Shown in pieces: positions 14,525-31,083 of a stretch of DNA of 64,000 nt (positions within the stretch are counted from its first letter, which is position 1; every line of letters starts with the position of its first letter). Under the pieces are notes generated by a model. It did not search any database, was not told where the DNA came from, and worked only from the letters and a program-made list of their open reading frames with translations. The position numbers were made by a program, and so were the translations under genes. The DNA comes from Halomonas sp. A40-4 (GTDB lineage Bacteria > Pseudomonadota > Gammaproteobacteria > Pseudomonadales > Halomonadaceae): positions 868,001 through 932,000 of the forward strand of contig NZ_CP065230.1 in assembly GCF_015767635.1 (NCBI RefSeq), written 5' to 3'.

Positions 14525-16540
14525 CTAGCCGAGTAGCTCATTGGCCTGTTTAACGACGTTTTCGACGGTAAAACCGAAATGCATGAACAGGTCGCCCGCC
14601 GGGGCCGATTCGCCGTAGGTGGTCATGCCGATCACCCGGCCATCCAGGCCCACGTACTTGTACCAGTAGTCCGCATGCCCGGCTTCGATGGCGATACGCT
14701 TGGTGACCGCCTTGGGCAGTACGCTTTCACGGTATTCGGCATCCTGGCCGTTAAAACGGTAGGCCGAGGGCATGGACACCACACGGACGGCCTTGCCCTG
14801 CTGCTCGAGCTCAGCGGCGGCGTCCATCGCCAACGACACTTCTGAGCCGGTGGCAATCAGAATCAGCTCGGGCGTTACGGGCGTGCCTTCACTGTCCTTG
14901 AGAACAGGGTCTTTAAGCACGTACGCCCCGTTTTGAATCGACGCCAGCTGTGCCTTGGTGCGCTGCTGATGGGGCAGGCCCTGACGCGAGAGAACCAGCG
15001 CGGTGGGGCCGGAGTGGCGTTTGAGGGCGGCGTCCCAGGCCGCCACGGTTTCCACCGCATCGCAAGGGCGCCAGGTGTTCAGGTTGGGCGTGGTGCGCAG
15101 GCTGGTCAGCTGCTCGATCGGTTGGTGGGTCGGGCCATCTTCGCCAAGGCCGATGGAGTCATGGGTGAAGACGTAAATCGCCTGTTGCCCCATCAGCGAT
15201 GCCATGCGCACTGAATTACGCATGTACTCCATGAAAATCAGGAAGGTCGCCCCGAACGGCACAAAGCCGCCGTGCAGGCCAATCCCGTTCATGACCGCGC
15301 CCATGCCAAACTCGCGCACGCCATAGTGCAGGTAGTTGCCACTGGCGTCTTCCGGCGTGATCGCTTTGGCGCCGTTCCAGAACGTCAGGTTCGATGGGGC
15401 CAGGTCGGCACTGCCGCCCAATAGCTCCGGCATCTGCGGGCCAATCACGTTTAACGTTTCAAAGGAGGCCTTGCGTGAGGCAATGCTGTCGCCCTTTTCC
15501 TGGGCTTGCTCAAGCAGCGCTTCGGTGGGCAGCTCCGCAGGCAGCTGCGCCTTCATACGGCGCTGGAACTCGCGTGCTTCGGCGGGGAACGCCTCCGCAT
15601 AGCGGTCAAACCGGGCATTCCATGCCTGCTGGTGCGCGCGGCCGGCTTCGCGGGCATCCCAGGCTGAATAGATTGGCTCTGGAACATGGAAGGGTGCATG
15701 GGGCCAGCCCAGTTGCTCGCGGGCGGCCGCCACTTCGTCATCCCCCAATGCCGCCCCATGGGCTTCTTCCTTGCCCTGCTTGTTAGGGGCACCAAAGCCG
15801 ATGATGGTTTTGCAGATAATCAGGCTGGGTTTGTCATCGTGGCTTTTGGCCAGTTCAATGGCCGCGTTGACCTCGTCCGGGTTGTGGCCGTCAACCGTCG
15901 GCACCACGTGCCAGCCGTACGCCTCAAAACGTTTCGCCGTATCGTCGGTAAACCAGCCTTTCACTTCGCCGTCGATGGAGATGCCGTTATCGTCATACAC
16001 CGCAATCAGTTTGCCGAGCTGCTGGGTGCCCGCCAGCGACGCCGCTTCGTGGGAAATGCCCTCCATCAGGCAGCCGTCACCCAGGAAGCACCAGGTGTGG
16101 TGGTCGACGATGGTGTGGCCAGGACGGTTGAACTGCGCCGCCAGGGTTTTTTCGGCGATGGCAAAGCCCACGGCGTTGGCAAAGCCCTGCCCCAACGGGC
16201 CGGTGGTGGTTTCAATGCCCGGTGCGTAGCCGTATTCCGGGTGCCCGGCGGTCGGCGAGTGCAACTGGCGGAAATTCTGCAGTTGTTCCAGGCTGAGCTC
16301 ATAACCGGTCAGGTGCAGCAGCGAATAGAGCAGCATGGAGCCGTGTCCGTTGGACAGCACGAACCGATCACGATCGGCCCATTTCGGGTCTTCGGGGTTG
16401 TGCTTGAGGTGGTCATTCCACAGCACTTCGGCAATATCCGCCATCCCCATGGGCGCGCCCGGATGGCCGGACTTGGCCTTCTGGACGGCATCCATGGAAA
16501 GGGCGCGAATGGCATTGGCCAGCTCAAAACGGTTATTCAT
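14525..16540 (-). CDS. tkt: Transketolase
   Basis: A 671-residue thiamine-diphosphate enzyme moving two-carbon ketol units in the pentose phosphate pathway. Landmarks: [18 protein letters not shown] near 23, the TPP motif [14 protein letters not shown] near 155, [15 protein letters not shown] near 470 and [13 protein letters not shown] near 557. Length is normal. Together with the upstream tal gene (56 bp before it, same strand) it could use erythrose-4-phosphate as acceptor, so the pair is metabolically linked to the C4-polyol block that diverges from tal. Its higher GC and core-like codon use suggest it is the resident chromosomal copy. Confidence 0.96.
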
Positions 16541-16596: not shown

Positions 16597-17544
16597 TTAG
16601 GCGCGAGCAGCCAAGCGTTGCGTGATCAGCGACTCTAATGTCTGTTGGTCGCAGGCGAAACGGCGGATCCCGTCAGCCAGCATCTCGTTGGCCATGGCAT
16701 CTTGGTTATGCTGCCAACGAAACGCTGCTTCTGATAGCGGTGTGGATGGTTCGTGGGTGACAGATTGTGATTGGATGTTGGAGGCCACTTCTCCCACCAT
16801 GCTATCAAGCTGCTCTAGCAGTGCGGGAGAAATGGTCAGGCGATGGCAGCCCGCCAACGTCAGGACCTGATCGATGGTACGGAAACTTGCCCCCATAACG
16901 ACTGTGTCGTAACGACCAGCGTCAGCCCTCTCGCAAATCCCTTTTACGAATAGCACGCCAGGATCGTCTTCTGGCGTGAACTGCTTACCTGTCGCCTTTT
17001 GGTACCAATCGCTAACGCGGCCAACGAAGGGCGAGATCAGATATACCCCTGCATCAAAGCAGGCCTGCGCCTGAGCATCGCTGAACAAGAGTGTCAAGTT
17101 GCAGTTGATCCCCTCGCGCTCGAGTTGCTCAGCCGCACGGATCCCTTCCCAGGTAGACGCAAGCTTGATCAGCACGCGGTTGCGGTTAATCCCTAGTTTC
17201 TCGTAGCGCTCAATCAGTTCGTAGGCCTTGCGGATACTGGCTTGGGAATCAAAAGAAAGGTGTGCGGACACCTCTGTTGATATTCGTCCAGGTATCACGT
17301 TGGCAATTTGCCCGCCGATCGCCACTGAAAGCTGGTCAACTATTCGGCTCGGGTCGTTCTCATCACGACGTGATTCAGCGAGCACTCTATCGATCATCTC
17401 TTGATAACGAGGCAGCTCGAAGGCCTTGAGTATCAAAGAGGGGTTAGTGGTGGCGTCCTGTGGTTGATAGCGCTTTATGGCATCCAGGTCGCCCGTGTCG
17501 GCCACGACCAGTGAGTGTTCGCGTAATCCATCCAGAAGCGACAT
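16597..17544 (-). CDS. tal: Transaldolase (TalB type)
   Basis: A 315-residue class I aldolase-type transaldolase; the Schiff-base Lys127 sits in VLIKLASTWEG, preceded by DATTNPSLI (30-37) and followed by NLTLLFSD and ISPFVGRVSDW. It interconverts sedoheptulose-7-phosphate plus glyceraldehyde-3-phosphate with erythrose-4-phosphate plus fructose-6-phosphate. Base composition is lower in GC than tkt and like the genes on its other side. It diverges from the RpiB-family gene across a 356-bp control region holding operator-like repeats, one of them only 33 bp upstream of its start. I infer it belongs to the adjoining catabolic block, to drain erythrose-4-phosphate. Confidence 0.94.
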   Translation of the reverse strand: MSLLDGLREHSLVVADTGDLDAIKRYQPQDATTNPSLILKAFELPRYQEMIDRVLAESRRDENDPSRIVDQLSVAIGGQIANVIPGRISTEVSAHLSFDSQASIRKAYELIERYEKLGINRNRVLIKLASTWEGIRAAEQLEREGINCNLTLLFSDAQAQACFDAGVYLISPFVGRVSDWYQKATGKQFTPEDDPGVLFVKGICERADAGRYDTVVMGASFRTIDQVLTLAGCHRLTISPALLEQLDSMVGEVASNIQSQSVTHEPSTPLSEAAFRWQHNQDAMANEMLADGIRRFACDQQTLESLITQRLAARA

Positions 17545-17576
17545 AGTCGACTCTCCTTAAAAAATGAACGGTATCC

Positions 17577-17595
17577 GATCAAATGATTGATCATT
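17577..17595. promoter_or_regulatory. Operator-like palindrome in front of tal (site A)
   Basis: GATCAA-ATGA-TTGATC is a perfect inverted repeat (17577-17592) that overlaps a second one, AAATGAT-TG-ATCATTT (17581-17596). The ATTGATCATT part matches the right half of the 23-bp motif found at 17770-17792 and 21405-21427. It lies 33 bp upstream of the tal start codon. Confidence 0.45.
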
Positions 17596-17769
17596 TTTGG
17601 CGATTTAGTCAAATCCAGTCGCTAGGAGCACCCGTGTTACAGCTATCAAACAAAAGTATAACTCTTTGTTTTGTCAGCGGTGTTTGTTTTGTTTTCATTT
17701 AAAAACAGTTGTTTGCGTATTTTTTGCCATTTAACCGTCCTTCCTTCCGTACTTAGAAAGCCATGATCT

Positions 17770-17792
17770 TATGATCAATGTGTTTACAAATG
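17770..17792 (-). promoter_or_regulatory. Shared 23-bp motif, copy 1 (site B)
   Basis: Read on the minus strand: CATTTG-N10-GATCATA. The same arms and spacing recur at 21405-21427 with 18 of 23 positions identical. It is 108 bp upstream of the rpiB-like start. A likely binding site of the SorC-type regulator encoded at 20220-21230. Confidence 0.5.
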
Positions 17793-17900
17793 ATAGGCAG
17801 GTGATAAATTGAATAGCGTCAGTAGACGATTGGTAGCTGTGAAGTGGTGCTTATCACTGTCAGTCGTTCACGTTTCTATTTTCTGGAAGGGAGAGCATGA

Positions 17901-18374
17901 ATGCCCAATGTGACACATTCTCTTAAAGTCGCGATTGGCGGTGATGAGGCGGCTTACGAGCTGAAAGAAATTCTCATTGGCCATGTCCGTGAGCTAGGCT
18001 ATGAAGTCGAGGATTTTGGTACTTTTAATGCAGAACCGGTGCTGTATCCCGATGTTGCCTTTGAGGTGGCCACGGCGATTAAGGAGGGTCGCTTCGATCG
18101 GGCCGTGCTGGTATGTGGGACGGGAATCGGGGTGGCTATTTCTGCCAATAAGGTACCCGGCATCCGCGCTGCACAGGCACATGATACCTATTCGGCTGGT
18201 AAGGCCAGAACCAGCAATGATGCACAGATCGTCACATTAGGGGGGAGGGTGGTCGGGCACGAACTCGCTAAGTCGATTGTATCGACCTTTTTGGGCAGTA
18301 CGTTTTCAGGTGGGCCATCTGAATTAAAAATAGCCAGGATTGCAGAGTATGAGTCTCGGATGAGTGCCCGGTAA
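17901..18374 (+). CDS. RpiB/LacA/LacB-family sugar-phosphate isomerase, probably tetrulose-phosphate isomerase
   Basis: A 157-residue isomerase of the RpiB fold. The catalytic base Cys72 is present in VCGTGIGVAISANKVPGIRA. Two positions that are His in E. coli ribose-5-phosphate isomerase B are changed: His10 corresponds to Glu16 (GGDEAAYELK) and His99, assigned to opening the ribose ring, corresponds to Ser105 (KARTSND). A four-carbon 4-phosphate cannot form a furanose ring, so loss of the ring-opening His fits an erythrulose-4-phosphate/erythrose-4-phosphate isomerase such as DerI. It is the first gene of an operon with a DhaK-type kinase and a SorC regulator. An ordinary ribose-5-phosphate isomerase or a hexose-phosphate LacAB-like enzyme are alternatives. 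Confidence 0.85.
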   Translation: MPNVTHSLKVAIGGDEAAYELKEILIGHVRELGYEVEDFGTFNAEPVLYPDVAFEVATAIKEGRFDRAVLVCGTGIGVAISANKVPGIRAAQAHDTYSAGKARTSNDAQIVTLGGRVVGHELAKSIVSTFLGSTFSGGPSELKIARIAEYESRMSAR

Positions 18375-18480
18375 GCATAAGTCGCTGGCATTCGCCGACA
18401 CTGATTTATAACCACATAGTAACAACAACGCCAAGCAAGCTGTGATAACACGGTCTGTGCTCGCTTCGGAGGATATAACA

Positions 18481-20211
18481 ATGACACGCCTATTTAACGA
18501 CCCGAATGATTTCCCTGAAGAAGCCCGGTTAGGCTTGGTAGCTGCCAATCGTGACAAGCTGATGGCGGTGCCGGGAGGTGTTGTGCGCAGTACGCGTAGT
18601 CAGCCGGATACTGTCGCGGTTGTCATCGGAGGTGGCAGTGGCCACTACCCAACCTTCGCGGGATTGGTCGGGCAAGGATTAGCACACGGCGCCGTCATGG
18701 GTAACCTGTTTTGCTCGCCTTCTGCACAACAAGTTTATTCTGTCGCCAAAGCCGCTAACAACGGCGGTGGTGTACTGCTTTCCTTTGGTAATTATGCGGG
18801 CGATGTACTGCATTTTGGTGAGGCGCGTGAGCGTTTAATCGCTGAAGGTATTGCCTGTGAAATCGTATTAGTGACGGATGATGTGGCGAGCGCACCCTTG
18901 GACGAATTCGATAAGCGCCGAGGTATCGCAGGGGATTTAACCGTCTTTAAAGCTGCCTCCGCTGCCGCAGAAAATGGATCATCACTGGAAGAAGTGGTTC
19001 GAGTGGCGAAGGAGGCAAATCGCTGTACACGTTCTTTTGGTGTGGCATTTGAGGGGTGCACGTTACCTGGGGCAGCTGATTCGCTCTTTCATGTCCCCAA
19101 AGGAAGAATGGCGATCGGGCTGGGAATTCACGGTGAGCCGGGCATTAGTGAGACCGATATCCCTTCCGCGGACGGGTTGGCCAGGGTTCTTGTCGACCGG
19201 TTGTTGGAAGAAGTCCCAGAAGGTATCAGCATCAAAGGGGCGAGGGTGGCGCCAATACTCAATGGTTTGGGCACCGTCAAGTATGAAGAGCTGTTCGTTA
19301 TTTATCGTAAAGTCGACGAATTGCTGCAGGAGGCCGGTCTTATCATCGTAGAGCCGGATGTGGGCGAGCTGGTGACCAGTCTTGATATGGCCGGGGTTTC
19401 GCTGACGCTGTTCTGGCTTGATAAGAATATGGAGCCGTTATGGACCGCTGCGGCGGATGCGCCGGGCTATCGAAAAGGCAGTGTGACGCCAGCGCAGACG
19501 CTGGATCCGGCAGAAGTTGAGGTGGTTACTCAAGATGAAATTCCCGAGGCTAGCGATGCTTCGCGACAATTAGCCACCGGTGTTGTGGAAGCACTTGGAG
19601 TGCTCGCCAGTACCGTCGATGAAAATTGCGAAATGTTGGGTCAGATTGATGCGGTGGCGGGCGATGGCGATCACGGTATTGGTATGCAGCGCGGCAGTCA
19701 GTCTGCGCTTGAAGCGGCCAGAGAAGCTTTGGATGGAGGAGCCGGTGCGGAGACAGTGCTCCACTGGGCTGGTCAGCGCTGGTCGGATAAGGCGGGTGGC
19801 ACCTCTGGTGCTATCTGGCGGGTTATCTTAAAAGCGATAGGGGAGTCGCTTGGTAATGAGAAGCCCCTTTCAAGTCAGCGTCTCGCTGCTGGCGTTTTTG
19901 GGGCCCGTCAGCAGGTAATGGCATTCGGCAAGGCAGAGGTGGGCGATAAGACCCTGGTCGATGTGTTGGTACCTTTTGCCGATGCGCTATCGCAGGAGGC
20001 TGAGAATGGTCGGGGAGCATTAGCTTGCTGGGAATATGCTGCACGTGTGGCGAGTGAAGCGGCTGAGGCCACCGCGAAACTTACCCCCCGGGTTGGGCGC
20101 GCGCGTCCATTGGCTGAAAAAAGCTTGGGTACGCCTGATGCCGGTTCGGTTTCATTGGCGCTGATTATTCAGGCGCTGATTCCTGTATTGAAAAAGTGTC
20201 AGGCAAGCTGA
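18481..20211 (+). CDS. DhaK-DhaL fusion kinase (dihydroxyacetone / erythrulose kinase)
   Basis: A 576-residue ATP-dependent ketose kinase. N-terminal DhaK domain (~1-330) with GGGSGH at 50-55 and His217 in GIHGEPG, the residue that binds the carbonyl of the substrate covalently; C-terminal DhaL domain (~365-576) with the Mg-ATP motif GDGDHG at 394-399 and GGTSGAIW. Start at 18481 is set by GGAGG 8 bases upstream; the frame opens 13 codons earlier without support. Single-chain DhaKL enzymes use ATP, not PTS phosphate. Placed between an RpiB-type isomerase and an EltD-like dehydrogenase, it most likely phosphorylates erythrulose (LerK/DerK role); dihydroxyacetone is the alternative substrate. 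Confidence 0.88.
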   Translation: MTRLFNDPNDFPEEARLGLVAANRDKLMAVPGGVVRSTRSQPDTVAVVIGGGSGHYPTFAGLVGQGLAHGAVMGNLFCSPSAQQVYSVAKAANNGGGVLLSFGNYAGDVLHFGEARERLIAEGIACEIVLVTDDVASAPLDEFDKRRGIAGDLTVFKAASAAAENGSSLEEVVRVAKEANRCTRSFGVAFEGCTLPGAADSLFHVPKGRMAIGLGIHGEPGISETDIPSADGLARVLVDRLLEEVPEGISIKGARVAPILNGLGTVKYEELFVIYRKVDELLQEAGLIIVEPDVGELVTSLDMAGVSLTLFWLDKNMEPLWTAAADAPGYRKGSVTPAQTLDPAEVEVVTQDEIPEASDASRQLATGVVEALGVLASTVDENCEMLGQIDAVAGDGDHGIGMQRGSQSALEAAREALDGGAGAETVLHWAGQRWSDKAGGTSGAIWRVILKAIGESLGNEKPLSSQRLAAGVFGARQQVMAFGKAEVGDKTLVDVLVPFADALSQEAENGRGALACWEYAARVASEAAEATAKLTPRVGRARPLAEKSLGTPDAGSVSLALIIQALIPVLKKCQAS

Positions 20212-20219
20212 CATGATAC

Positions 20220-21230
20220 ATGCCTTTCAACAACCCCTGGATGCCGAGGATGAATGGTCAAGACGCTGCTGACATTGACTTAATGACAGAGATTGCAACG
20301 CTCTACTATGTGCAAGGGGAGACGCAAGAAGCTATTGCTAACCGACTTGGGCATTCGCGAGTGCGAATAGGCCGGCTGCTCAAGCGCGCACAGGCAGAGG
20401 GGATTGTGGATGTTCGGGTGCGCTTACATCGTTCCGTTAGCATAGAGATTGAGCAGGAACTAAAGCGACGCTTTGGTCTGAAGCGAGCGCTGATTGCGTT
20501 GGATAACGCTGATCCTGATGTGCAGCGCTCAGGTGTAGCGAGTCTGGTGGCCGATCATCTTTCACGTAGTTTGAATGACGGCCAGATCGTCGCCGTGGGT
20601 ATGGGGCGTAACGTCGCCGCCGTGGCCGATAATGTTTTCCTGGCAGAGTCGTTAAATGTTTCTTTTGTATGCGCGATTGGTGGCTCGTTGCGTGCGGGGG
20701 AGCATATGAACCCCGATCATATTTGTCGGCGTTTGGCGAGTCGATTTGGCGGGGATAGTGAGACCCTTTATGCCCCAGCGCTGGTGCAGAGCGGTGAGGT
20801 AAGGGATGCGCTGTATGAAAATTCCACCGTGCGTCAGACATTGGATCGCGCCCGGCGCGCGGATACGGCGTTGATTGGTGTCGGCGACGTGAGTGAAGAC
20901 AGTAATATGGTGCGTATGGGGTGGTTTTCCGCCCAGGAAATTGCTGAAGCACGGCTCTCCGGGACAGTGGGCGATATGATGGGTTATGACTTTATCGATA
21001 TCCATGGGCAGCCTTCGGCGACGCAGATGCAGGGGCGTGTGGTAGGCCTCAATATCCAGGATCTCACGCGCATTCCAGATGTTATCGCTATCGCCAGCGA
21101 GAATACCAAAGCGGTTGGTATTCTAGGTGCGCTACGTACCGGGGTTATCGATACTTTGGCGACTAGTGTCACCAATGCGCACACTATACTGCGGCTTGAT
21201 GAGGCGACTCAGAGCGAAGTGCGCGCGTGA
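20220..21230 (+). CDS. SorC/DeoR-type sugar-binding transcriptional regulator
   Basis: A ~336-residue SorC-family regulator: N-terminal helix-turn-helix (residues ~28-62, YYVQGETQEAIANRLGHSRVRIGRLL) and a C-terminal sugar-phosphate-sensing domain like glucosamine-6-phosphate deaminase (VAVGMGRNVAAVADN, FVCAIGGS, ALIGVGDVSEDSNM). It starts only 8 bp after the kinase, so it is cotranscribed and translationally linked, though its own ribosome binding site is poor and starts at codons 8, 11 or 22 are possible. The effector is probably a phosphorylated intermediate of the pathway. The repeated motifs at 17770 and 21405 are its most likely operators. Confidence 0.87.
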   Translation: MPFNNPWMPRMNGQDAADIDLMTEIATLYYVQGETQEAIANRLGHSRVRIGRLLKRAQAEGIVDVRVRLHRSVSIEIEQELKRRFGLKRALIALDNADPDVQRSGVASLVADHLSRSLNDGQIVAVGMGRNVAAVADNVFLAESLNVSFVCAIGGSLRAGEHMNPDHICRRLASRFGGDSETLYAPALVQSGEVRDALYENSTVRQTLDRARRADTALIGVGDVSEDSNMVRMGWFSAQEIAEARLSGTVGDMMGYDFIDIHGQPSATQMQGRVVGLNIQDLTRIPDVIAIASENTKAVGILGALRTGVIDTLATSVTNAHTILRLDEATQSEVRA

Positions 21231-21404
21231 TGTATGGCCATTGCCCGACAGCTTGCAGGCTTAAATATGACCGGCCGAGCTCGGAAGCTTGCTTGTTTTC
21301 CTTCTAGATTCTTTCCCGCATTCATTTGTTCGCCGTGAAGTATACCGGCCCTTCGCGGAGAGATGCTTGTAAGTGGTGCTTGTCGATAGCAATCTCTATG
21401 TGAA

Positions 21405-21427
21405 CATTTGAACAATCATCGATCATA
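21405..21427 (+). promoter_or_regulatory. Shared 23-bp motif, copy 2 (site C)
   Basis: CATTTG-N10-GATCATA, matching the copy at 17770-17792 at 18 of 23 positions. A direct repeat GAACA-TTT-GAACA (21402-21414) overlaps its left arm. It lies 104 bp upstream of the TATAAT at 21531. Confidence 0.5.
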
Positions 21428-21530
21428 TAGAATGTCGTCTACCACTTACCTTCACTTCTTTTTTATGGCAAATAATTCCAAAAATATAAATTAATTATTA
21501 TTATCAGTAGCTTGCGAAATGGTCCTAAAG

Positions 21531-21536
21531 TATAAT
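21531..21536 (+). promoter_or_regulatory. -10 hexamer for the eltD-like operon
   Basis: Perfect TATAAT. No good -35 is found at 16-18 bp (the nearest, TTGCGA, is only 13 bp away), which suggests dependence on an activator. The expected leader is ~115 nt. Confidence 0.45.
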
Positions 21537-21551
21537 AATAAAAGACATCAT

Positions 21552-21591
21552 TATGAATTGACTCGGCTACGCTTAAGGTAGTTAATTCATA
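21552..21591. repeat. Inverted repeat TATGAATT-N24-AATTCATA just downstream of the predicted start site
   Basis: Perfect 8-bp arms (21552-21559, 21584-21591), centre to centre 32 bp or about three helical turns. It may be a second operator or a leader-RNA stem. Confidence 0.4.
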
Positions 21592-21658
21592 TGTACACGT
21601 TAGGAACTTTTGTAACGCCAGTGCAGAAAGACAACACGAGAAGCATTAGGAGTGAGCA

Positions 21659-22765
21659 ATGCATAACGCTGATAACAACAATCACGCTGAACTACCACTG
21701 ACCATGCAAGCCGTGGTCGCCTACGCGCCTGGTGATTATCGCCTTGAAGAGGTGGACGTGCCCGAGGTGGGAGAAGGTGAAGTGCTGATTAAGGTCGAAG
21801 CATGCGGGATCTGCGCAGGCGACCTCAAGGCCTACGAAGGCGCCCCCAGCTTTTGGGGCGATGAGACTCAGCCCGCCTACATCAAGGCACCGATGATTCC
21901 AGGTCATGAGTTTATTGGTCACGTGATGGCTTTGGGTGAGGGGGTTAAGAACCTGGAGATCGGCGACCGCGTTATTTCTGAGCAAATTGTGCCTTGTTGG
22001 GAGTGTCGTTTCTGTCACCGTGGGCAGTACTGGATGTGCGAAAAGCACGATGTCTATGGGTTTCAGCATAACGTGAACGGGGGGATGGCCGATTATATGG
22101 TCTTCCCCAAAGAGGCGATTAATCACAAGCTGCCCGATGAGATTCCGATGGAAAAAGCGGTTCTTATTGAACCCTATGCGTGTTCGTTACACGCGGTAAA
22201 GCGTGCGCAGGTTGAACTGGGTGACGTGGTTGTCCTCTCCGGAGCGGGAACGCTAGGGCTAGGAATGATCGGCGCGATCAAAAAATCCGGGCCTTCGAAA
22301 CTGGTCGTTCTGGATCTCAATAATAAGCGTTTAGAACTTGCCAAACAATTTGGTGCCGACATCGTTTTGAATCCTGCTGACGTCAATGTTGTTGACTACG
22401 TGAAAAGCATAACAGAAGGCTACGGCTGCGATATCTATATTGAGGCTACTGGTGCCGTTAAGTCAGTAGAGCAAGGTCTCTATATGATTCGTAAACTTGG
22501 TCGTTTCGTCGAATTCAGCGTATTCAAAGAGCCTGTGACTGTCGATTGGAGCATTATCAGTGATCGTAAAGAACTGGATATATTAGGTGCGCATCTAGGC
22601 CCTTATTGCTATCCGCTTGTGATTGAAGGTATCGGGAATGGTGATTTTCCAACGAATCATGTTGTTACACATAAACTTCCGTTGAATAAATTCCACCAAG
22701 GGTTGGATATGATGCGCAATGATCCTGACGCGTTAAAGGTTGTGCTTATACCTGGCGATCAGTAG
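21659..22765 (+). CDS. eltD: Zinc-dependent erythritol/L-threitol dehydrogenase-like MDR enzyme
   Basis: A 368-residue medium-chain dehydrogenase. Catalytic zinc ligands Cys52, His83 and Glu84 (GHE), with Glu171; structural zinc cysteines 113, 116, 119 and 127 (PCWECRFCHRGQYWMC); Rossmann motif GAGTLGLG at 196-203. The stretch SEQIVPCWEC..GQY and WSIISDRKELD..GAHLGPYCYP strongly recall the Mycolicibacterium smegmatis erythritol/L-threitol dehydrogenase EltD as I remember it. It would oxidise a C4 polyol to erythrulose with NAD+. AGGAG lies well placed before the ATG. It heads the operon with the importer. Another polyol (for example a pentitol) is possible. Confidence 0.8.
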   Translation: MHNADNNNHAELPLTMQAVVAYAPGDYRLEEVDVPEVGEGEVLIKVEACGICAGDLKAYEGAPSFWGDETQPAYIKAPMIPGHEFIGHVMALGEGVKNLEIGDRVISEQIVPCWECRFCHRGQYWMCEKHDVYGFQHNVNGGMADYMVFPKEAINHKLPDEIPMEKAVLIEPYACSLHAVKRAQVELGDVVVLSGAGTLGLGMIGAIKKSGPSKLVVLDLNNKRLELAKQFGADIVLNPADVNVVDYVKSITEGYGCDIYIEATGAVKSVEQGLYMIRKLGRFVEFSVFKEPVTVDWSIISDRKELDILGAHLGPYCYPLVIEGIGNGDFPTNHVVTHKLPLNKFHQGLDMMRNDPDALKVVLIPGDQ

Positions 22766-22812
22766 GTTACGAAAGCTTTTTATTTATAAATACAATGATA
22801 ACCGGAGTGGTT

Positions 22813-23457
22813 ATGTCGGCGACATTAAATTCGGTGCCCGGTGGTAAGCGTATAAGCGTCTATGTGACAGCTGCTTTAATTTTAGTGCTATTCGCACTCA
22901 TGGCGTTTGATACCAAAGTCATTAGTCTTACGGAGCTTGAGAGCGAGGCGGGTTTTTCACCACAGCAATTTGCTAAGGAAACCTTTCCTGAGATTCAGGC
23001 GTATGTCGAGAATAATGCCGTAGATGCATCGGTATTGGCGCCGGAAGTGCTCCAGGATGCTGGCGCGGCAGGTGGTAAATACGGCGTGGCCGCAAGCATC
23101 GGTCATATTGTACCGGTCTCTTTATCAGGCGTTGCTGTAGAGGGACAGGGGGGCACTTACACCCTTGATGTTGCCGATGTGCCTTCAGATATCGCCATTC
23201 GTGTACAAACTGGCCCAGCTATTAATGGCACAACGCTGAGAGATACAACCGGCAATATTCAATTTGGTGACTTCACCAATCAGATCGAATACCAGGATGT
23301 CGGTGCAGCACTCAATGATGAAATGAAGCGCCAAGCGCTTGCGGATATTTCCGGGCAAGATTTAACTGGAAAAACGTTAGAGGTCGTCGGCTCCTTCACC
23401 ATGATAAATCCCAAAAACTGGCTAATTACTCCCGTGAGTATAGCGATCATTGAGTGA
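22813..23457 (+). CDS. DUF2291 membrane-anchored protein of a sugar ABC cluster
   Basis: A 214-residue protein with one N-terminal membrane anchor (YVTAALILVLFALMAF near 17-32) and a soluble domain that should face the periplasm. I place the start at 22813, with GGAG 5 bases upstream; the frame opens 6 codons earlier. DUF2291 proteins are found next to ribose-type ABC importers, and no function is assigned. Here it is the first gene of the transport block, 9 bp before the ATPase, so an accessory role in uptake is plausible. The call is by pattern (GKYGVAASIG, FGDFTNQIEYQDVG, ..MINPKNWLITPVSI) and context. Confidence 0.75.
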   Translation: MSATLNSVPGGKRISVYVTAALILVLFALMAFDTKVISLTELESEAGFSPQQFAKETFPEIQAYVENNAVDASVLAPEVLQDAGAAGGKYGVAASIGHIVPVSLSGVAVEGQGGTYTLDVADVPSDIAIRVQTGPAINGTTLRDTTGNIQFGDFTNQIEYQDVGAALNDEMKRQALADISGQDLTGKTLEVVGSFTMINPKNWLITPVSIAIIE

Positions 23458-23466
23458 GGATCGTCT

Positions 23467-25008
23467 ATGAGTATCGATACATCAACAGTGGAAGTAGCTC
23501 CGGTAATTCTTTCTGCACGCAATATTGAAAAGCGTTTCGGTGCCGTGCAAGCCCTCAAGGACGTGAACTTCGATATATATCGGGGGCAGGTGACAACGCT
23601 TTTTGGCGAAAATGGAGCGGGTAAGTCGACGCTGATGAAAATCTTGTCTGGCGTCATGACTCAGACGGGGGGCGAAATTGTTTTGGAAGAAGAAAGTGTC
23701 AGCTTTTCTTCTCCATCAGATGCAGAAGCCTTGGGGATTGCCATTATTCATCAGGAGTTGAGCCTGGCCCCTAACCTTAATGTGCGTGACAACATTTTTA
23801 TGGGTCGCGAGCTGACTAAAGGAGGGGGTAGTGTCGACTATAAAGAAGAAGCGCGCCAGGCTGAGCTGCTAATGGCGGAGCTTGATGAACCCATCCACCC
23901 GCTCACTCTGGTCGAAGACCTGCGCGTGGGGCAGCAGCAAATCGTTGAAATCGCTAGAGCACTGTCCAAGAACTCACGGATTTTGATTATGGATGAGCCG
24001 ACCTCTGCCTTGAGTGCGACGGAAGTAGAAACGCTTTTCAAAGTCGTCAAGGACCTCAAGAGCAAGGGCGTGTCGATTGTTTATATTTCCCACCATTTGG
24101 AAGAAGCATTACAGATTACCGATCATGCCGTTGTGCTGCGCGATGGTGTGATGACGGCTTATGCTCCGCGCTGTGACATCGACCTGCAGTGGATTGTGAG
24201 GCATATGGTGGGAGAGAGTTTTGATCTTGGTTCACCGCCAACAGGGTACGAGCTGGGTGCCAGCGCGCTATCTATTCAGAATCTGTATGTAAGCGACGAT
24301 AAAGTCGCAGGTCGTTATGTGGTCGAGGACTTTTCGCTGGACGTGAAGGCAGGCGAGATTATCTGCATTTACGGGCTGATGGGTGCTGGCAGAACGGAGT
24401 TACTGGAGTGTGTGGCAGGGCGAACCCGACAGTCCCAGGGAGATGTTTTGCTCAACTCACATGATGTCTCGCATTACAACATTGCACAACGAATAGAGAG
24501 AGGGCTGGTACTGGTGCCTGAGGATCGTCAGCGTGATGGATTGGTTCCCACCCTGTCAGTTGGCAGGAATCTGTCGCTAGCCAGTATCCGTGCATTTACT
24601 CACAAAGGTCTGACGTCATCCAGCCTGGAGGCAGGAATGATCGGTTCAGCAATTGATAAGGTGCGCATCAAGACAGACGGTGGCGAAGCTGGCATCGGTT
24701 CATTGTCCGGCGGCAATCAGCAAAAGGTGGTGATCGGCAAAATGTTGGCGACTGATCCTGACGTCATCATGCTAGATGAACCAAGCCGTGGCATTGATGT
24801 AGGCGCCAAGGCTGAAGTGTTCAAATTATTGAGCCAGGGAGCGCGACAAGGTTTGGCGGTGGTTTTCACAACGTCTGAAGTCAGTGAATGCTTGAGTATA
24901 CCGCATAGGGTGCTGGTGATGAGCAAGGGGCGAATCACTGCTGAATTCGGTCCTGGCGTATCGAAAGATGAAATTATGGCTGCTTCCGGTGAATCAGTTG
25001 CTGCGTAA
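23467..25008 (+). CDS. Sugar ABC importer ATPase (RbsA/MglA type, two nucleotide-binding domains)
   Basis: A 513-residue fused ATPase. First domain: Walker A GENGAGKST near 51, Walker B ILIMDEPTSALS near 177. Second domain: degenerate Walker A GLMGAGRTE near 305, signature LSGGNQQKVVIGK near 420 and Walker B VIMLDEPSRGIDVGAK near 440. Loss of the second Walker A lysine is normal in the carbohydrate CUT2 subfamily. It works with the permease at 25032 and the binding protein at 26211 in the cytoplasmic membrane. It follows the DUF2291 gene by 9 bp. Confidence 0.93.
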   Translation: MSIDTSTVEVAPVILSARNIEKRFGAVQALKDVNFDIYRGQVTTLFGENGAGKSTLMKILSGVMTQTGGEIVLEEESVSFSSPSDAEALGIAIIHQELSLAPNLNVRDNIFMGRELTKGGGSVDYKEEARQAELLMAELDEPIHPLTLVEDLRVGQQQIVEIARALSKNSRILIMDEPTSALSATEVETLFKVVKDLKSKGVSIVYISHHLEEALQITDHAVVLRDGVMTAYAPRCDIDLQWIVRHMVGESFDLGSPPTGYELGASALSIQNLYVSDDKVAGRYVVEDFSLDVKAGEIICIYGLMGAGRTELLECVAGRTRQSQGDVLLNSHDVSHYNIAQRIERGLVLVPEDRQRDGLVPTLSVGRNLSLASIRAFTHKGLTSSSLEAGMIGSAIDKVRIKTDGGEAGIGSLSGGNQQKVVIGKMLATDPDVIMLDEPSRGIDVGAKAEVFKLLSQGARQGLAVVFTTSEVSECLSIPHRVLVMSKGRITAEFGPGVSKDEIMAASGESVAA

Positions 25009-25031
25009 TTATTAAAAATAGGTGTTTAACC

Positions 25032-26132
25032 ATGTCTCATCATAATAACAATGGCGTACAAGCAGAAAAAAAGCGCATTGACTTCGTTAAGATTTTGCTC
25101 GAAGGAAGAGCTTTTTTTGCTTTACTTGCGATCATCATCGTCTTCTCCATCCTTTCGCCGGTTTACTTCTCGACGGGTAACTTTTTAACCATGTCCTCAC
25201 ACGTGGCTGTTTTTGGGCTACTAGGTGTAGGCATGCTATTTGTCATTCTGACCGGTGGTATCGATTTATCGGTTGGCTCTACACTGGCTCTTAGCGGCGT
25301 GTTCGCGGGAATGCTACTTGAAGGGGTTGAAATTGAAGCGCTTGACTTGGCTTTCTTCCCTTCAGTGTGGGTCGTTGTGGTGCTTACTTGCTTACTAGGC
25401 GGGGTAGTCGGGGCTATCAACGGTGTGCTCGTTGCCTATTTCAAGGTGCCAGCTTTCGTGGCCACGCTGGGTATGTTGTATGTTGCACGCGGGGCCGCCC
25501 TGTTGCTGACGGATGGTTTAACTTTCAATAGTTTAAGTGGTGATCCTGCGCTGGGTAATACAGGGTTTGAGTGGCTTGGTTTTAATAAACTGCTCGGTAT
25601 TCCCGTGGGCATCTTGATCCTTTTCAGCGTTGCCATGATTTGCATGTTGGCGCTTAGCCGCACTCCTTTTGGTCGGTGGGTCTACTCTACGGGCGGAAAC
25701 GCACGAGCTGCAGAGCTATCCGGGGTGCCGGTAAATAGAGTGAAGCTATCTGTCTATATTATTTCCGGGGTATGTGCCGCCATCGCTGGTATTGTGCTTG
25801 CCTCGCAGTTGACCTCTGCTGGGCCTACAGCAGGCACAACCTACGAGCTGACCGCGATTGCGGCCGTTGTGATTGGCGGCGCCTCGCTTATGGGTGGGCG
25901 TGGCACGATTCGTAATACTTTATTGGGCGCCTTTGTCATTGGTTTTCTCGCCGATGGGCTGGTCATCATCGGCGTGTCTGCTTATTGGCAGATGGTCTTC
26001 ACGGGCAGCGTTATTGTCTTCGCTGTCATGCTGAATAATGTGCAGTACAGTGCTAACAAAAAGCCCTCGAAAAAAGCTGATAAAGAAAAGATAGAAACTA
26101 AAAAAGAAAGTTCTAGTGCAAGCGCTACTTGA
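25032..26132 (+). CDS. Sugar ABC importer permease (RbsC type)
   Basis: A 366-residue CUT2-family permease with about ten hydrophobic segments and the conserved LTGGIDLSVGSTLALSG near 77-93, AVVIGGASLMGGRGTI near 278-293, and PAFVATLGML. The C-terminal ~25 residues are lysine-rich and hydrophilic (KKADKEKIETKKESS), longer than usual. Because CUT2 systems carry a homodimer of one permease, no second permease gene is expected and none is present. It is 23 bp after the ATPase. Confidence 0.92.
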   Translation: MSHHNNNGVQAEKKRIDFVKILLEGRAFFALLAIIIVFSILSPVYFSTGNFLTMSSHVAVFGLLGVGMLFVILTGGIDLSVGSTLALSGVFAGMLLEGVEIEALDLAFFPSVWVVVVLTCLLGGVVGAINGVLVAYFKVPAFVATLGMLYVARGAALLLTDGLTFNSLSGDPALGNTGFEWLGFNKLLGIPVGILILFSVAMICMLALSRTPFGRWVYSTGGNARAAELSGVPVNRVKLSVYIISGVCAAIAGIVLASQLTSAGPTAGTTYELTAIAAVVIGGASLMGGRGTIRNTLLGAFVIGFLADGLVIIGVSAYWQMVFTGSVIVFAVMLNNVQYSANKKPSKKADKEKIETKKESSSASAT

Positions 26133-26210
26133 CGTAGCCTTGTTTAGAAGTGTGACCTGATTGGGTCTGTATAACCAAGAGCTAACAATCATAACGACGA
26201 GGTGATGAAC

Positions 26211-27167
26211 ATGCTTCCCAAAAGCAAGAAAGTAATTTTTACAGCACTGGCCAGTGCCTCTATGCTCTTTAGCGGTGCTATAGCAGCTCAGGAAAAGGGG
26301 CTCATATCTATCATTGTCAATGATATGTCAAACCCTTATTGGCAAACGGAAGGAACGATTGCTGAACAAACGGCAGAGGAGTTGGGCTATGAAGCAAATG
26401 TAAGCTCTCATGTCGGTGATACCAACACTGAAAGTAATCAAGTCGATACGGCGATTACCAATGGCGCTAAAGCGATTATTCTAGACCCTGCAAATGCGGA
26501 TGGTTCTATTGGCGCTGTGCGAAGAGCTGTTGATGCAGGAATCCCCGTGTTTATTATTAATGCCGAGATTAATCAGCAAGGATTGGCCAAGGCACAACTT
26601 GTATCCAATAATGCACAAGGGGCTGCGTTAGGGGCGCAACAGTGGGCAATGCAATTGGGTGGTGAAGGCTCTTATATCGAGTTACAGGGCCCGCCTTCTG
26701 ATAATAATGCCGCGACAAGATCCAATGGCTACGAGACAGTGCTAAGCCAGTACCCAGACCTTAACCTTGTGGCCTCTGATATCGCTAATTGGGATCGTAC
26801 GGAAGGTCGCAATAAAATGCAGAGCATGTTGCGCTCCCATCCTGATATTAAGGGCGTGATCAGTGGTAACGACGAAATGGCCTTAGGTGCTATTGTCGCC
26901 CTGAAGCAAGAGGGTTTGCTTGATGATGTATTGGTTGGTGGATTTGATGGTTCGCCTGATGCGGTTGATGCGGTTCGTGCGGGTGAATTGGCCTATACTG
27001 TCCTACAGCCGGTAGCTGTTTTTGCTGAAGAGTCAGTGAGAATTGCCGATCGCTATATCAATACCGGAGAAACCGGTCTGGATAGTGAAAAGCAACTGTA
27101 CGACTGTGTCCTCATCACGCCGGATAGCGTTGATAATTACACATCCCCTTTTGTATTAGAGGGATAA
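26211..27167 (+). CDS. Periplasmic sugar-binding protein (PBP1/RbsB type)
   Basis: A 318-residue binding protein with a typical signal peptide (MLPKSKKVIFTALASASMLF, cleavage near GAIAA-QEKG). The start at 26211 is preferred since GAGGTG is 6 bases upstream; GTG 26202 and ATG 26205 are alternatives. The mature part has the type I fold: ISIIVNDMSNPYW at the start, GAKAIILDPANADG, and GVISGNDEMALGA then VGGFDGSPDAV, the hinge and ligand regions of ribose-type proteins. Its ligand would be the free polyol or sugar. A terminator-like hairpin follows, so the kinase downstream may be expressed at a lower level. Confidence 0.92.
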   Translation: MLPKSKKVIFTALASASMLFSGAIAAQEKGLISIIVNDMSNPYWQTEGTIAEQTAEELGYEANVSSHVGDTNTESNQVDTAITNGAKAIILDPANADGSIGAVRRAVDAGIPVFIINAEINQQGLAKAQLVSNNAQGAALGAQQWAMQLGGEGSYIELQGPPSDNNAATRSNGYETVLSQYPDLNLVASDIANWDRTEGRNKMQSMLRSHPDIKGVISGNDEMALGAIVALKQEGLLDDVLVGGFDGSPDAVDAVRAGELAYTVLQPVAVFAEESVRIADRYINTGETGLDSEKQLYDCVLITPDSVDNYTSPFVLEG

Positions 27168-27191
27168 ATCGAAAGATAGTCTTTCTTCGAG

Positions 27192-27223
27192 GCCAGTCAG
27201 CGTTGATGCTGGCTGGCTTTTTT
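27192..27223 (+). terminator. Hairpin with T-tract after the binding-protein gene
   Basis: Stem GCCAGTCAGC (27192-27201) / GCTGGCTGGC (27208-27217) with one wobble pair, loop GTTGAT and six Ts. The downstream kinase starts 18 bp later on the same strand, so this probably acts as a partial terminator or stabilises the abundant binding-protein mRNA. Confidence 0.75.
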
Positions 27224-27240
27224 GTTGAGAGGAAGAGTCA

Positions 27241-28146
27241 ATGATATTTAACTTTGGTTCCATAAATATTGATCATACATATCGTGTTGCCTATTTTGTT
27301 CGCCCTGGTGAAACGTTGGAAAGTAATGAATACAGTGTTGGTTTGGGGGGGAAAGGCGTCAATCAATCATTGGCGATAGCGCGTGCCAAGGGAGCGGTCA
27401 GTCACTGGGGGTGCGTTTCATCAGTAGACGCCTGGGTGGTGCCTGAGTTGGAGTCTGCGGGTGTCGGTGTGCAAGATGTCGAATTGACCGCTGAGCCGAG
27501 TGGGCATGCGATTATTCAAATTGATGCACGTGGTGAAAACGCTATTCTTTTATTTTCAGGCGCTAACCATGGCTTTACACCGGAACGCATGAAGGCGCTT
27601 GTTGCGCAAACAACGCCTGGTGACACAATGCTTATCCAGAACGAGTGCAATGGGCTTGATCAGCTGATTCCATTGGCAGTGAGCCATGGTTGCAAAGTGG
27701 TATTTAATCCTGCGCCAATGACCTCGGGGGTATCGTCGCTGCCTCTGGACCAATGTAAGTTACTATTCTTTAACCGTACAGAGGCCGCCACTTTATTGGA
27801 AATGCCATTAGAGTCGAGTGCTTCCGATTTGCTAAGACGTTTTAATGAAACGCTGGGAAGTGTCGAGGTGGTTCTTACGCTTGGCGGTGAGGGGGCCTGG
27901 TATCAGTACAACAGTGAGGCTTATTTTCAACCGGCCTTAAAGGTACAGGCCATCGATACAACGGCAGCGGGTGATACCTTTGTCGGCTACTTCCTGGCGG
28001 CCCGACAGGCGGGTCTTGAGCCACCGCAGTGCCTACAAAGGGCAACAGCAGCTGCGGCGCTTGCGGTTCAAAGGCGGGGTGCGGCCAGTAGTATTCCGAT
28101 GGCAGAAGAAGTTGATAGGTTGATGTGTCAACAAGAAGCACTATAG
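27241..28146 (+). CDS. PfkB-family sugar kinase (ribokinase-like)
   Basis: A 301-residue kinase with the PfkB signatures: substrate-binding GLGGKGVNQSLAIARAKG near 35-52, VFNPAPM near 156, FFNRTEAATLL near 177 and the C-terminal anion hole plus catalytic Asp in DTTAAGDTF near 239. This set matches ribokinase more than fructokinase. In the block it gives a second kinase beside DhaKL. It may phosphorylate an imported ketose or a side product, or it may be the remnant of a pentose-using function of the cluster. GAGAGGAAG precedes the ATG. Confidence 0.88.
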   Translation: MIFNFGSINIDHTYRVAYFVRPGETLESNEYSVGLGGKGVNQSLAIARAKGAVSHWGCVSSVDAWVVPELESAGVGVQDVELTAEPSGHAIIQIDARGENAILLFSGANHGFTPERMKALVAQTTPGDTMLIQNECNGLDQLIPLAVSHGCKVVFNPAPMTSGVSSLPLDQCKLLFFNRTEAATLLEMPLESSASDLLRRFNETLGSVEVVLTLGGEGAWYQYNSEAYFQPALKVQAIDTTAAGDTFVGYFLAARQAGLEPPQCLQRATAAAALAVQRRGAASSIPMAEEVDRLMCQQEAL

Positions 28147-28260: not shown

Positions 28261-29049
28261 TCAGGATACTCCAAAATCAGCGGACTGCTCACGCCATAGC
28301 GCCGCCTCGTGGCGCAGGGTGCTGGCGAACAAGGCGATATCGTTGGGACCTGCCACGAAACGGTAGCCGCTATTTTTCAAAGTGGCGATATCGCGACCGG
28401 GCCCGGTGATGGTGCCCATCCAGCGCCCGCTATTGCCGATGCGGCGCTCCAGACCCTCAATCAGGCGGCGTACCTCAGGTGCCTCGAGCTGTTCGAGTAA
28501 GCCCATTGAACCCGCTAGGTCGTTGGGGCCAATAAACAGCATATCGATGCCCTCGACGCCGGCGATCGCCTCGACGTTGTCGGCCGCATCGACATGCTCG
28601 ATCTGAGCGATCAACAGCAGGTCGTCGTTGGCCTGACGGGCATAGTCGCCGAAGGCACCGTAGCCCGAGGCGCGCACGATCGGCGCCGCATAACCGCGCT
28701 GACCCTGGGGAGGGTAGCGGCAAGCATCGACGACGGCGCGGGCCTGCTCGGCGCTGTTGACCATCGGCACCATGATCGAGCGCACGCCCATGTCGAGGAC
28801 CTTCTTCAGATAGGCCGGATCGTTGGCGGGGATGCGCAGGACCGCCTCGCCACCAGCGGCTTCGATGGCGCGGACCAGGTGCGAGGTATGTTCGAGGCTC
28901 GATACGCCGTGCTCGTTGTCGATCAGGATGGTCTTCCAGCCGGCCCAGACGGCCACTTCGGCCAGTTCGGGGCTGGCGCTTTCCAGCCATAGGGCGCTGA
29001 TGGTTCGGCCCTGCTGCAGGGCGAGTTTGGTGCGGTTGCGATGGCTCAT
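28261..29049 (-). CDS. HpcH/HpaI-family aldolase (2-keto-3-deoxy-acid or 4-hydroxy-2-oxo-acid aldolase)
   Basis: A 262-residue class II, metal-dependent aldolase that splits a 4-hydroxy-2-oxo acid to pyruvate and an aldehyde. Family active-site segments: LIDNEHGVSSLEH (His), VLRIPANDP (Arg), IAQIEHVDAADN (metal Glu), LFIGPNDLAGSMG (metal Asp). Its ATG overlaps the tctA stop by four bases (ATGA), so it is the last gene of the TCT operon. GC content is clearly above that of the neighbouring polyol block. The aldehyde product cannot be told from sequence. Confidence 0.88.
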   Translation of the reverse strand: MSHRNRTKLALQQGRTISALWLESASPELAEVAVWAGWKTILIDNEHGVSSLEHTSHLVRAIEAAGGEAVLRIPANDPAYLKKVLDMGVRSIMVPMVNSAEQARAVVDACRYPPQGQRGYAAPIVRASGYGAFGDYARQANDDLLLIAQIEHVDAADNVEAIAGVEGIDMLFIGPNDLAGSMGLLEQLEAPEVRRLIEGLERRIGNSGRWMGTITGPGRDIATLKNSGYRFVAGPNDIALFASTLRHEAALWREQSADFGVS

Positions 29050-30578: not shown

Positions 30579-30582
30579 GGAA

Positions 30583-31055
30583 TCACCAGGCCAGTGGCGT
30601 CAAAAGGCCCCAGGGGAGCGGGACGCGCAGCAGCGAATAGAACAGCAGGTGCACGCCGATCACCAGGGGCAGGGCCAGCAGCGCGGCACCCGTGACACGC
30701 AGCCCGAATACCCGGCCCGTGGCGAAAACCGCCAGGAAGGAGGCGATATGAAAGCCCAGGGGGGCGAGCAGCAGGCCGTAGCCGCATACCACGACCAGCA
30801 GGGCCAGGGGGCGTGCCGCCGCCCACCGGCCCGATGGCCGGGCCGGCTCGGTCGGGTGCTCTGTGCCGGCCGCCGGCTCCGCGGCCCCAAGCCAATCGCC
30901 GCGCCGCAGACCATCAGGCCGATCGCCGCGATGGCAGGAAACAGGCCGGGGCCATACTCCAGCCCGGCCAGGGTCGGGAAGGTCGAGGCGCGCCACAGCA
31001 CCAGCGCGCCGAACAGGACCAGCAGGCTACCCGACAAGCGATCATTGTGGGACAT
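30583..31055 (-). pseudogene. tctB: TctB small membrane subunit, disrupted by a -1 frameshift in a G run
   Basis: The N-terminal half (MSHNDRLSGSLLVLFGALVL.. to AAIGLG) is in one frame from 31055, and the C-terminal half (PLALLVVVCGYGLLLAPLGF.. to LTPLAW) is in another, ending at 30583, 4 bp before tctA. The break is at the minus-strand run GGGG (plus-strand CCCC 30885-30888): one extra G would restore a continuous ~157-residue protein reading AIGLGAAEPAAG across the joint, the normal TctB length with four spans. This may be a true mutation, a sequencing error in a homopolymer, or less likely a programmed shift. Confidence 0.8.
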
Positions 31056-31083
31056 GGATACCTCCGGGAGCGATGCGCCGCGC

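Follow-up and report, generated by a model that had tools for sequence, protein, structure and literature searches.

A probable erythritol catabolic regulon without a LerI-type isomerase gene in Halomonas sp. A40-4

Tetritol pathways of Mycolicibacterium smegmatis comprising EltD, LerK/DerK, LerI and DerI were reportedly described by Huang in 2015. The tetritol routes of this species take three or four steps (PMC12780249); EltD and LerK convert erythritol to D-erythrulose-4-phosphate, LerI and then DerI act in turn on the L-erythrulose (L-threitol) branch, and erythritol needs no LerI (PMC10733421). The ery loci of Rhizobium and Brucella carry EryABCD, EryR, TpiB, RpiB and EryEFG, and growth of R. 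leguminosarum on erythritol requires eryEFG, whose transcript opens with a hypothetical gene (PMC3599248; papers are cited by PubMed Central number). Here, we analysed 64,000 nucleotides of the Halomonas sp. A40-4 genome (contig NZ_CP065230.1, positions 868001-932000; hereafter the window), in which ten genes at 16597-28146 encode an EltD-like dehydrogenase, a fused DhaKL kinase, an RpiB-family isomerase, a SorC regulator, a CUT2 importer with a DUF2291 protein, a PfkB kinase and a transaldolase. These families had been named in an earlier interpretation made from the letters alone (the sequence-only reading), and open reading frames (ORFs) and profile matches agree with them.

This block is likely to be a dedicated erythritol catabolic regulon that runs from erythritol via D-erythrulose and D-erythrulose-4-phosphate to D-erythrose-4-phosphate. 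Erythritol would be taken up by the DUF2291/CUT2 importer, which is of the Rhizobium EryEFG kind, oxidised to D-erythrulose by the zinc-dependent EltD-like dehydrogenase, and phosphorylated to D-erythrulose-4-phosphate by the fused DhaKL. The RpiB-family protein, in which the ring-opening His is lost, would then convert open-chain D-erythrulose-4-phosphate to D-erythrose-4-phosphate, which an adjoining transketolase and transaldolase would feed into the pentose phosphate pathway, while the SorC protein would govern both arms via TGWWCAWWTGWWCA sites. From gene content, conservation, a genome without a LerI-type gene, a residue signature and common operator candidates we infer every reaction, substrate, stereochemistry and inducer, and any role of PfkB. 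The predicted phenotype is growth on erythritol and D-erythrulose, and none on L-threitol or L-erythrulose via the block. Among relatives, growth on erythritol is published for Halomonas sp. HL-93, with HL-48 not mentioned as a grower; the same paper counts an erythritol ATP-binding cassette (ABC) transporter among its novel predictions (PMC5507952), whose genes may or may not be those of the block. For Chromohalobacter salexigens the erythritol entry is +/+ (PMC3034673). No description of the gene cluster was found among the titles and abstract openings of the literature matches listed, a search whose scope did not extend to supplements and most subscription papers.

The dehydrogenase is present in 15 of the 82 genus genomes searched, host included, the 14 others being 90-96% identical and the next best matches about 34% identical. 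In all 14 further genus loci the same nine genes (RpiB, DhaKL, SorC, dehydrogenase, DUF2291, ATPase, permease, binding protein and PfkB) occur together, and because of this the grouping is not due to chance: the block is an accessory cassette that is kept whole. The named loci L002-L008 carry the same nine genes and apparently overlap with these 14, and were thus not added. Of the 14 fetched loci, 11 show a transaldolase and 8 a transketolase, five of the 14 stretches stopping at a contig edge on that side; L130 has a transketolase without a transaldolase beside the block, and L126 the reverse. A dehydrogenase scan of named genomes yielded 477 candidates, the best 80 of which (79 loci) were kept, and therefore only the closest dehydrogenase relatives are covered; the closest named ones among these 80 are from Halomonas/Vreelandella. 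An RpiB-family gene occurs in 77 of the 79 loci and DhaK in 74, all with RpiB too; DhaK was not in the stretch examined in L030, L033, L042, L054 and L061, and in L030 and L042 neither was RpiB. An EryG-type binding protein more than 60% identical to that of the window is found in 28 of the 79.

The block resembles the M. smegmatis pathway in that oxidation would come first, followed by a DhaK-family kinase and an RpiB-family isomerase predicted to lead to erythrose-4-phosphate, as in the three-step erythritol branch. It differs in having a SorC regulator, its own transketolase-transaldolase pair and an extra PfkB kinase, and in that block and genome are without a LerI-type gene, so the L-threitol branch is missing. 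The absence of a LerI-like gene from the block, noted in the sequence-only reading, was confirmed, and in the complete genome (4.15 Mb, single contig, rated 99.99% complete) PF00121 recovered two triosephosphate isomerase (TIM) genes only, with 316 and 297 bits, and no LerI-type gene. Both genomic TIMs were 35 and 31% identical to an Erwinia LerI-type query (94 and about 88 bits) and scored 102-105 bits with a Klebsiella LerI-type query, whereas eight LerI-type proteins from Salinicola and Kushneria reached 276-286 and 234-252 bits, respectively. These TpiA-like scores argue against the suggestion that the missing enzyme lies elsewhere in the genome. Likewise, a LerI-type TIM was found in none of the 82 genus genomes (73 at least 90% complete; all 15 carrying the block rated at least 96% complete), the best match being 37% identical with 101 bits; 78 of the 82 gave a single match to the LerI-type query, TpiA-like in score, and we read such matches as presumptive triosephosphate isomerases.

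In the stretches examined of the 79 dehydrogenase loci, a LerI-type TIM was present in eight, all from Salinicola and Kushneria, and absent from 66 of the 74 loci with both RpiB and DhaK (two LerI-type queries and one TpiA-like query, E<=1e-6, predicted ORFs). This search recovered its positive controls from Arthrobacter, Pantoea and R. etli (3/3). A locus without LerI is thus the rule for loci with such a dehydrogenase, not the exception, and the emphasis that had been placed on the absence as unusual was overstated. Nor is LerI a required step, since it is needed on the L-erythrulose (L-threitol) branch and not for erythritol (PMC10733421): on the erythritol branch the dehydrogenase yields D-erythrulose, and no LerI is required. 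This settles the LerI puzzle of the sequence-only reading in favour of the option it had itself listed, a route via D-erythrulose, kinase and RpiB-type isomerase to erythrose-4-phosphate, and makes the locus a tidy variant of known biology, not a mystery. It also yields a testable prediction, erythritol yes and L-threitol no, by which loci that have LerI can be told from those that lack it.

The fused kinase groups with the kinases of Salinicola and Kushneria (97/93 support) in a wider clade with Erwinia, Pantoea, Klebsiella, Arthrobacter and S. meliloti. In every clade member looked at (Salinicola, Kushneria, Erwinia, Pantoea, Klebsiella and Arthrobacter) a LerI-type TIM lies close to the kinase, the S. 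meliloti neighbourhood having been left out of this comparison as a record without annotation. The Chromohalobacter, H. eurihalina, Salmonella-plasmid and Bacillota clusters viewed have separate DhaK and DhaL of another clade. Assignment as an erythrulose kinase would hold at the level of the DhaK family, by a PRK14479 score above cut-off and membership of the LerI-associated clade. The Salinicola and Kushneria clusters (L047, L056, L071-L074, L079 and L080) resemble the block in dehydrogenase, DUF2291 importer, RpiB and fused kinase, with SorC in most, but keep a LerI-type TIM beside the kinase, and PfkB was not found in the stretches examined. Because the kinase clade otherwise adjoins LerI, the Vreelandella cassette probably derives from a LerI-bearing one, LerI having probably been lost from the ancestral cassette to leave an erythritol-only route; it is this kinase ancestry that makes the cassette a variant and not a plain copy. 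The same ancestry would suit a route via L-erythrulose (L-threitol) in which LerI is replaced by an unrecognised isomerase or a TpiA-like protein, as would the presence of two TIM genes in the genome, one of them beside another polyol-type cluster. However, we hold this route to be quite unlikely in view of the scores of both TIMs with PF00121 and the Erwinia query, the single TpiA-like match in 78 of 82 genus genomes, and the nine-gene unit, which has no extra isomerase gene in any of the 14 loci.

Returning to the proposed route via D-erythrulose, its last step is suggested by residues of the RpiB-family protein. In an alignment of 89 RpiB-family sequences, the window protein has Ser, Ser and Lys where E. 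coli has His99, His134 and Arg137 (H/H/R in C. thermocellum RpiB also), so that none of these ribose-5-phosphate isomerase B residues is present. The S99/S134/K137 combination, with Cys66 kept, is found in 78 of 78 RpiBs of the dehydrogenase loci. RpiB is rare in the class Gammaproteobacteria, with 5 of 143 genomes having it, host included, and the other four proteins comprise three of the H/H/R type and one divergent form (Trp, Glu, Lys). Loss of the ring-opening His is chemically sensible because, as we infer, a C4 phosphate esterified at O4 cannot form a furanose ring. The E. coli H99N mutant retains its Km while kcat is down 26-fold (PMC4783025), and a Coccidioides RpiB with Ser replacing the ring-opening His is suspected to act on shorter-chain substrates (PMC3212906). 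In NF051858, the D-erythrulose-4-phosphate isomerase model, R. etli RpiB (257.9 bits) and PDB chain 5ifz (partial, 249.4 bits), both with Ser, Ser and Asn, lie above the cut-off of 240, and the Arthrobacter RpiB scores 143.5 bits. The Ser99/Ser134/Lys137 signature occurs in RpiBs from Bacillota, Gammaproteobacteria, Alphaproteobacteria (Commensalibacter) and Actinomycetota (Arthrobacter), members of which are called ribose-5-phosphate isomerase in public records. As an annotation rule, we propose that an RpiB with Ser for the ring-opening His, near DhaK kinases, be considered a tetrose-phosphate isomerase. The fungal chain 3qd5 (PMC3212906) has the identical Ser, Ser and Lys, and may be a tetrose-phosphate isomerase too.

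With respect to uptake, the importer shares its DUF2291/ATPase/permease/binding protein make-up, and the block its RpiB-family gene, with the Rhizobium and Brucella ery loci. Identities to the R. leguminosarum pRL12 importer are 69.6% (binding protein), 71.9% (ATPase), 68.0% (permease) and 47.3% (DUF2291), and the pRL12 genes are flanked by FGGY kinase, glycerol-3-phosphate dehydrogenase and TIM-barrel genes in the eryABC pattern. From this gene order, the pRL12 record would be the characterised erythritol locus, its replicon name being absent from the main text of PMC3599248; the hypothetical gene that opens the eryEFG transcript may be the DUF2291 gene. All four components, including the leading DUF2291 gene, fall in the families of the EryEFG-type set, and the binding protein is 69.9 and 63.6% identical to its Roseibium and Arthrobacter counterparts. 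A tree of 18 binding proteins gave little resolution, with long branches and stars on just 2 of 15 inner ones, and identities were therefore relied on. Naming follows the R. leguminosarum scheme, with EryG as binding protein; in PMC10190533, EryE is a single-pass membrane protein and EryG a ten-pass one. In contrast to the Rhizobium and Brucella loci, the phosphorylation-first enzymes EryA and EryC were not found in the genome: an EryA-position query gave a best FGGY match of 28%, and an EryC-position query, in a search without a positive control of its own, gave no match. The classical eryABC route was rejected on the grounds of these EryA and EryC queries.

The sequence-only reading had also left open a different substrate, and in this form a pentose, pentitol or apiose would be used, with PfkB as ribokinase, RpiB as ribose-5-phosphate isomerase, and transketolase and transaldolase taking pentose phosphates. 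PfkB is indeed nearest to ribokinases, and the binding protein resembles proteins named ribose-binding and is 51.8% identical to that of the R. etli OiaX locus (NC_007766, of the apionate/apiose type), which like the block has a DUF2291 importer, DhaK, DhaL and RpiB, along with TIM genes. The solved chains 5ibq and 4ry0 of a binding protein like that of the OiaX locus reportedly hold D-apiose and D-ribose. Set against this, RpiB is without the ring-opening His, and PfkB was not found in Salinicola, Kushneria and Chromohalobacter loci that retain dehydrogenase, importer and RpiB. Moreover, the importer is only 32-52% identical to that of the OiaX locus (ATPase 48.2%, permease 47.2%, DUF2291 31.9%), the binding protein is far nearer the eryABC-flanked one, and no OiaX-type or Gfo/Idh/MocA gene was found among the block genes. 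Apiose or apionate use was rejected on the absence of an OiaX-type gene from the block and the nearer kinship of the importer to the erythritol type. Thus weakened by importer, RpiB residues, a block without apiose-route genes and a genome without near relatives of EryA or EryC, a different substrate is retained as an unlikely alternative, and the C4-polyol interpretation of the sequence-only reading is the best supported by importer identity, partner genes and RpiB residues.

PfkB itself scores below the ribokinase cut-off (Table 1), with ribokinases as its nearest solved chains; elsewhere in the genome it has weak matches to part of its length only (no more than 36% identity over 120 residues). 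It is present in the window and in 14 of 14 fetched genus loci, and was not found in the examined Salinicola, Kushneria and Chromohalobacter stretches. General scavenging of dihydroxyacetone and erythrulose, or of mixed tetroses, with PfkB phosphorylating a free tetrose directly, would fit this retention and the resemblance of DhaKL to dihydroxyacetone kinases; it is very improbable, since the polyol dehydrogenase and erythritol-type importer, which occur together in the window and all 14 loci, indicate a polyol substrate. More speculatively, and in our view doubtful, the kinase of the LerI-associated clade may have re-specialised to D-erythrulose after loss of LerI, or been displaced by PfkB as tetrulose/tetrose kinase, with the Ser99/Ser134/Lys137 RpiBs forming a tetrose-4-phosphate isomerase class.

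For the oxidation step, the dehydrogenase is 55.8% identical to a Providencia protein annotated in its record as erythritol/L-threitol dehydrogenase. Its best matches in PDB and NCBIfam point to a threonine dehydrogenase, a label that was rejected because all 22 NCBIfam matches lay below their cut-offs. Four enterobacterial EltD or DhaKL clusters have regulators 51-55% identical to that of the block, and a Roseibium regulator in EryD position (a cut fragment) is 29.7% identical to it. At no more than one mismatch, TGWWCAWWTGWWCA matched the window three times, against 0.44 expected, and none of 100 shuffles reached three; two of the three matches lie in the block, upstream of the dehydrogenase (perfect) and upstream of RpiB. 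The site at the dehydrogenase promoter has 0-1 mismatches in 13 of the 15 genus loci and three in L124 and L131, and in all 10 loci scanned from other genera the 400 bases upstream of RpiB or of the dehydrogenase contain a site with 0-1 mismatches. The consensus used in these scans had been selected visually in conserved promoter blocks, and was thus partly picked from the data; because it came from the same promoters, the operator evidence is supportive and not independent. An unbiased search for 14-mers common to both promoters gave mostly AT-rich noise.

A number of observations weigh against the proposed erythritol route. The binding protein is narrowly below the 73% EryG cut-off of PMC3599248, and the solved structures closest to it bear ribose-binding names. 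Dehydrogenase homologues reach 75% identity in clusters without an assigned substrate, DhaKL as a member of a LerI-adjacent clade would fit L-erythrulose, and the ribokinase-like PfkB is not accounted for by the route. The window RpiB scores 164.8 bits on NF051858, below the cut-off of 240 of a model whose name refers to Rhizobiales, and is the single PF02502 gene in the genome. The 78 RpiBs are not independent because their loci were picked via the dehydrogenase, and His10 (kept in 32 of 78) and Arg133 (12 of 78) do not separate groups. At the RpiB promoter the best operator match has one mismatch in 4 and two in 11 of the 15 genus loci, at varying places. Finally, the likeness to M. smegmatis EltD, LerK and DerI is one of family.

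Table 1. Genes and candidate operator sites of the block (window positions).
Feature	Position	Strand	Basis or remark
Transketolase	14525..16540	-	ORF; second full-length copy in genome; probably dedicated to block, consuming erythrose-4-phosphate
Transaldolase, TalA/B type	16597..17544	-	TIGR00874 408 bits, cut-off 396.2
Candidate SorC operator TGATCTTATGATCA	17764..17777	.	One mismatch vs TGWWCAWWTGWWCA
RpiB-family isomerase, putative D-erythrulose-4-phosphate (DerI-type) isomerase	17901..18374	+	PF02502
Fused ATP-type DhaK-DhaL kinase, putative erythrulose kinase	18478..20211	+	PRK14479 722.5 bits, cut-off 492
SorC/DeoR-type sugar-binding regulator	20220..21230	+	PF04198 (Sugar-bind)
Candidate SorC operator TGAACATTTGAACA	21401..21414	.	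Perfect match vs TGWWCAWWTGWWCA
Zinc-dependent polyol dehydrogenase, EltD-like; erythritol to D-erythrulose predicted	21659..22765	+	ADH_N + ADH_zinc_N
DUF2291 protein, leads importer set	22795..23457	+	PF10054 128.7 bits
CUT2 ABC transporter ATPase	23467..25008	+	ABC_tran
CUT2 ABC transporter permease	25032..26132	+	BPD_transp_2
Periplasmic binding protein, EryG-type (R. leguminosarum naming)	26202..27167	+	Peripla_BP_4
PfkB-family kinase, ribokinase-like, role unsettled	27241..28146	+	PF00294; TIGR02152 218.3 bits, cut-off 299.65

The DhaKL kinase starts at GTG 18442 in the ORF list. The lower GC content (guanine plus cytosine) of the block compared to its flanks, as previously described, was borne out: genes lying between 17901 and 28146 have 0.47-0.56 (third-position GC 0.43-0.56), against 0.57-0.62 in the left flank (DEAD-box, RIO-kinase and transketolase genes) and 0.64-0.65 in the right flank (two genes measured), with third-position GC of 0.67-0.84 in the five flanking genes measured. 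The transaldolase is intermediate (GC 0.55, third-position GC 0.61). While the listed genes stood, the left border was amended: the block probably extends leftward to the transketolase, because a second full-length copy exists in the genome (the other at G000:C1:351671-352657) and Chromohalobacter, Halomonas and some enterobacteria have transketolase-transaldolase pairs next to the same dehydrogenase/RpiB cluster. Transaldolases number four PF00923 genes in the genome.

Two kinds of plasmid records carry related genes. Seven enterobacterial ones (Salmonella, Klebsiella, E. coli and Raoultella; H82-H88) have a dehydrogenase 74-75% identical to that of the window, accompanied on one of them (L104) by an MFS transporter, SDR, DhaK, DhaL, SorC-like regulator, RpiB and transaldolase. 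The Arthrobacter sp. FW306-07-I plasmid (L100:6479-17170), typed conjugative, carries a tetritol-type set made up of a DUF2291 importer, whose three main proteins are 62-66% identical to those of the block, a fused DhaKL, RpiB and a LerI-type TIM, and its two alcohol dehydrogenases are only 27-31% identical to the window dehydrogenase.

The genome also contains a second polyol-type cluster (G000:C1:1538754-1553206; L093:2755-17207), with an FGGY kinase, a SorC-like regulator, two SDRs, a second DUF2291/CUT2 importer, an apparent split transketolase, a transaldolase, a transketolase and a TIM. One SDR lies above the GolD/DthD family cut-off (314 vs 286), and a D-threitol dehydrogenase in this cluster could supply D-erythrulose to the window kinase. 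The full-length-type transketolase (L093:14363-16353) is broken into two overlapping frames. Glucose-6-phosphate isomerase-like genes (L093:511-2178 and 17612-19279), nearly identical by eye and in equal orientation, flank the cluster, and these repeats would be a set-up for its duplication or excision by recombination. To the right of the block, at 28261-32082 in the window, lie genes for an HpcH/HpaI-type aldolase and a tripartite tricarboxylate transporter (by eye), which adjoin the block in 4 of the 14 fetched genus loci.

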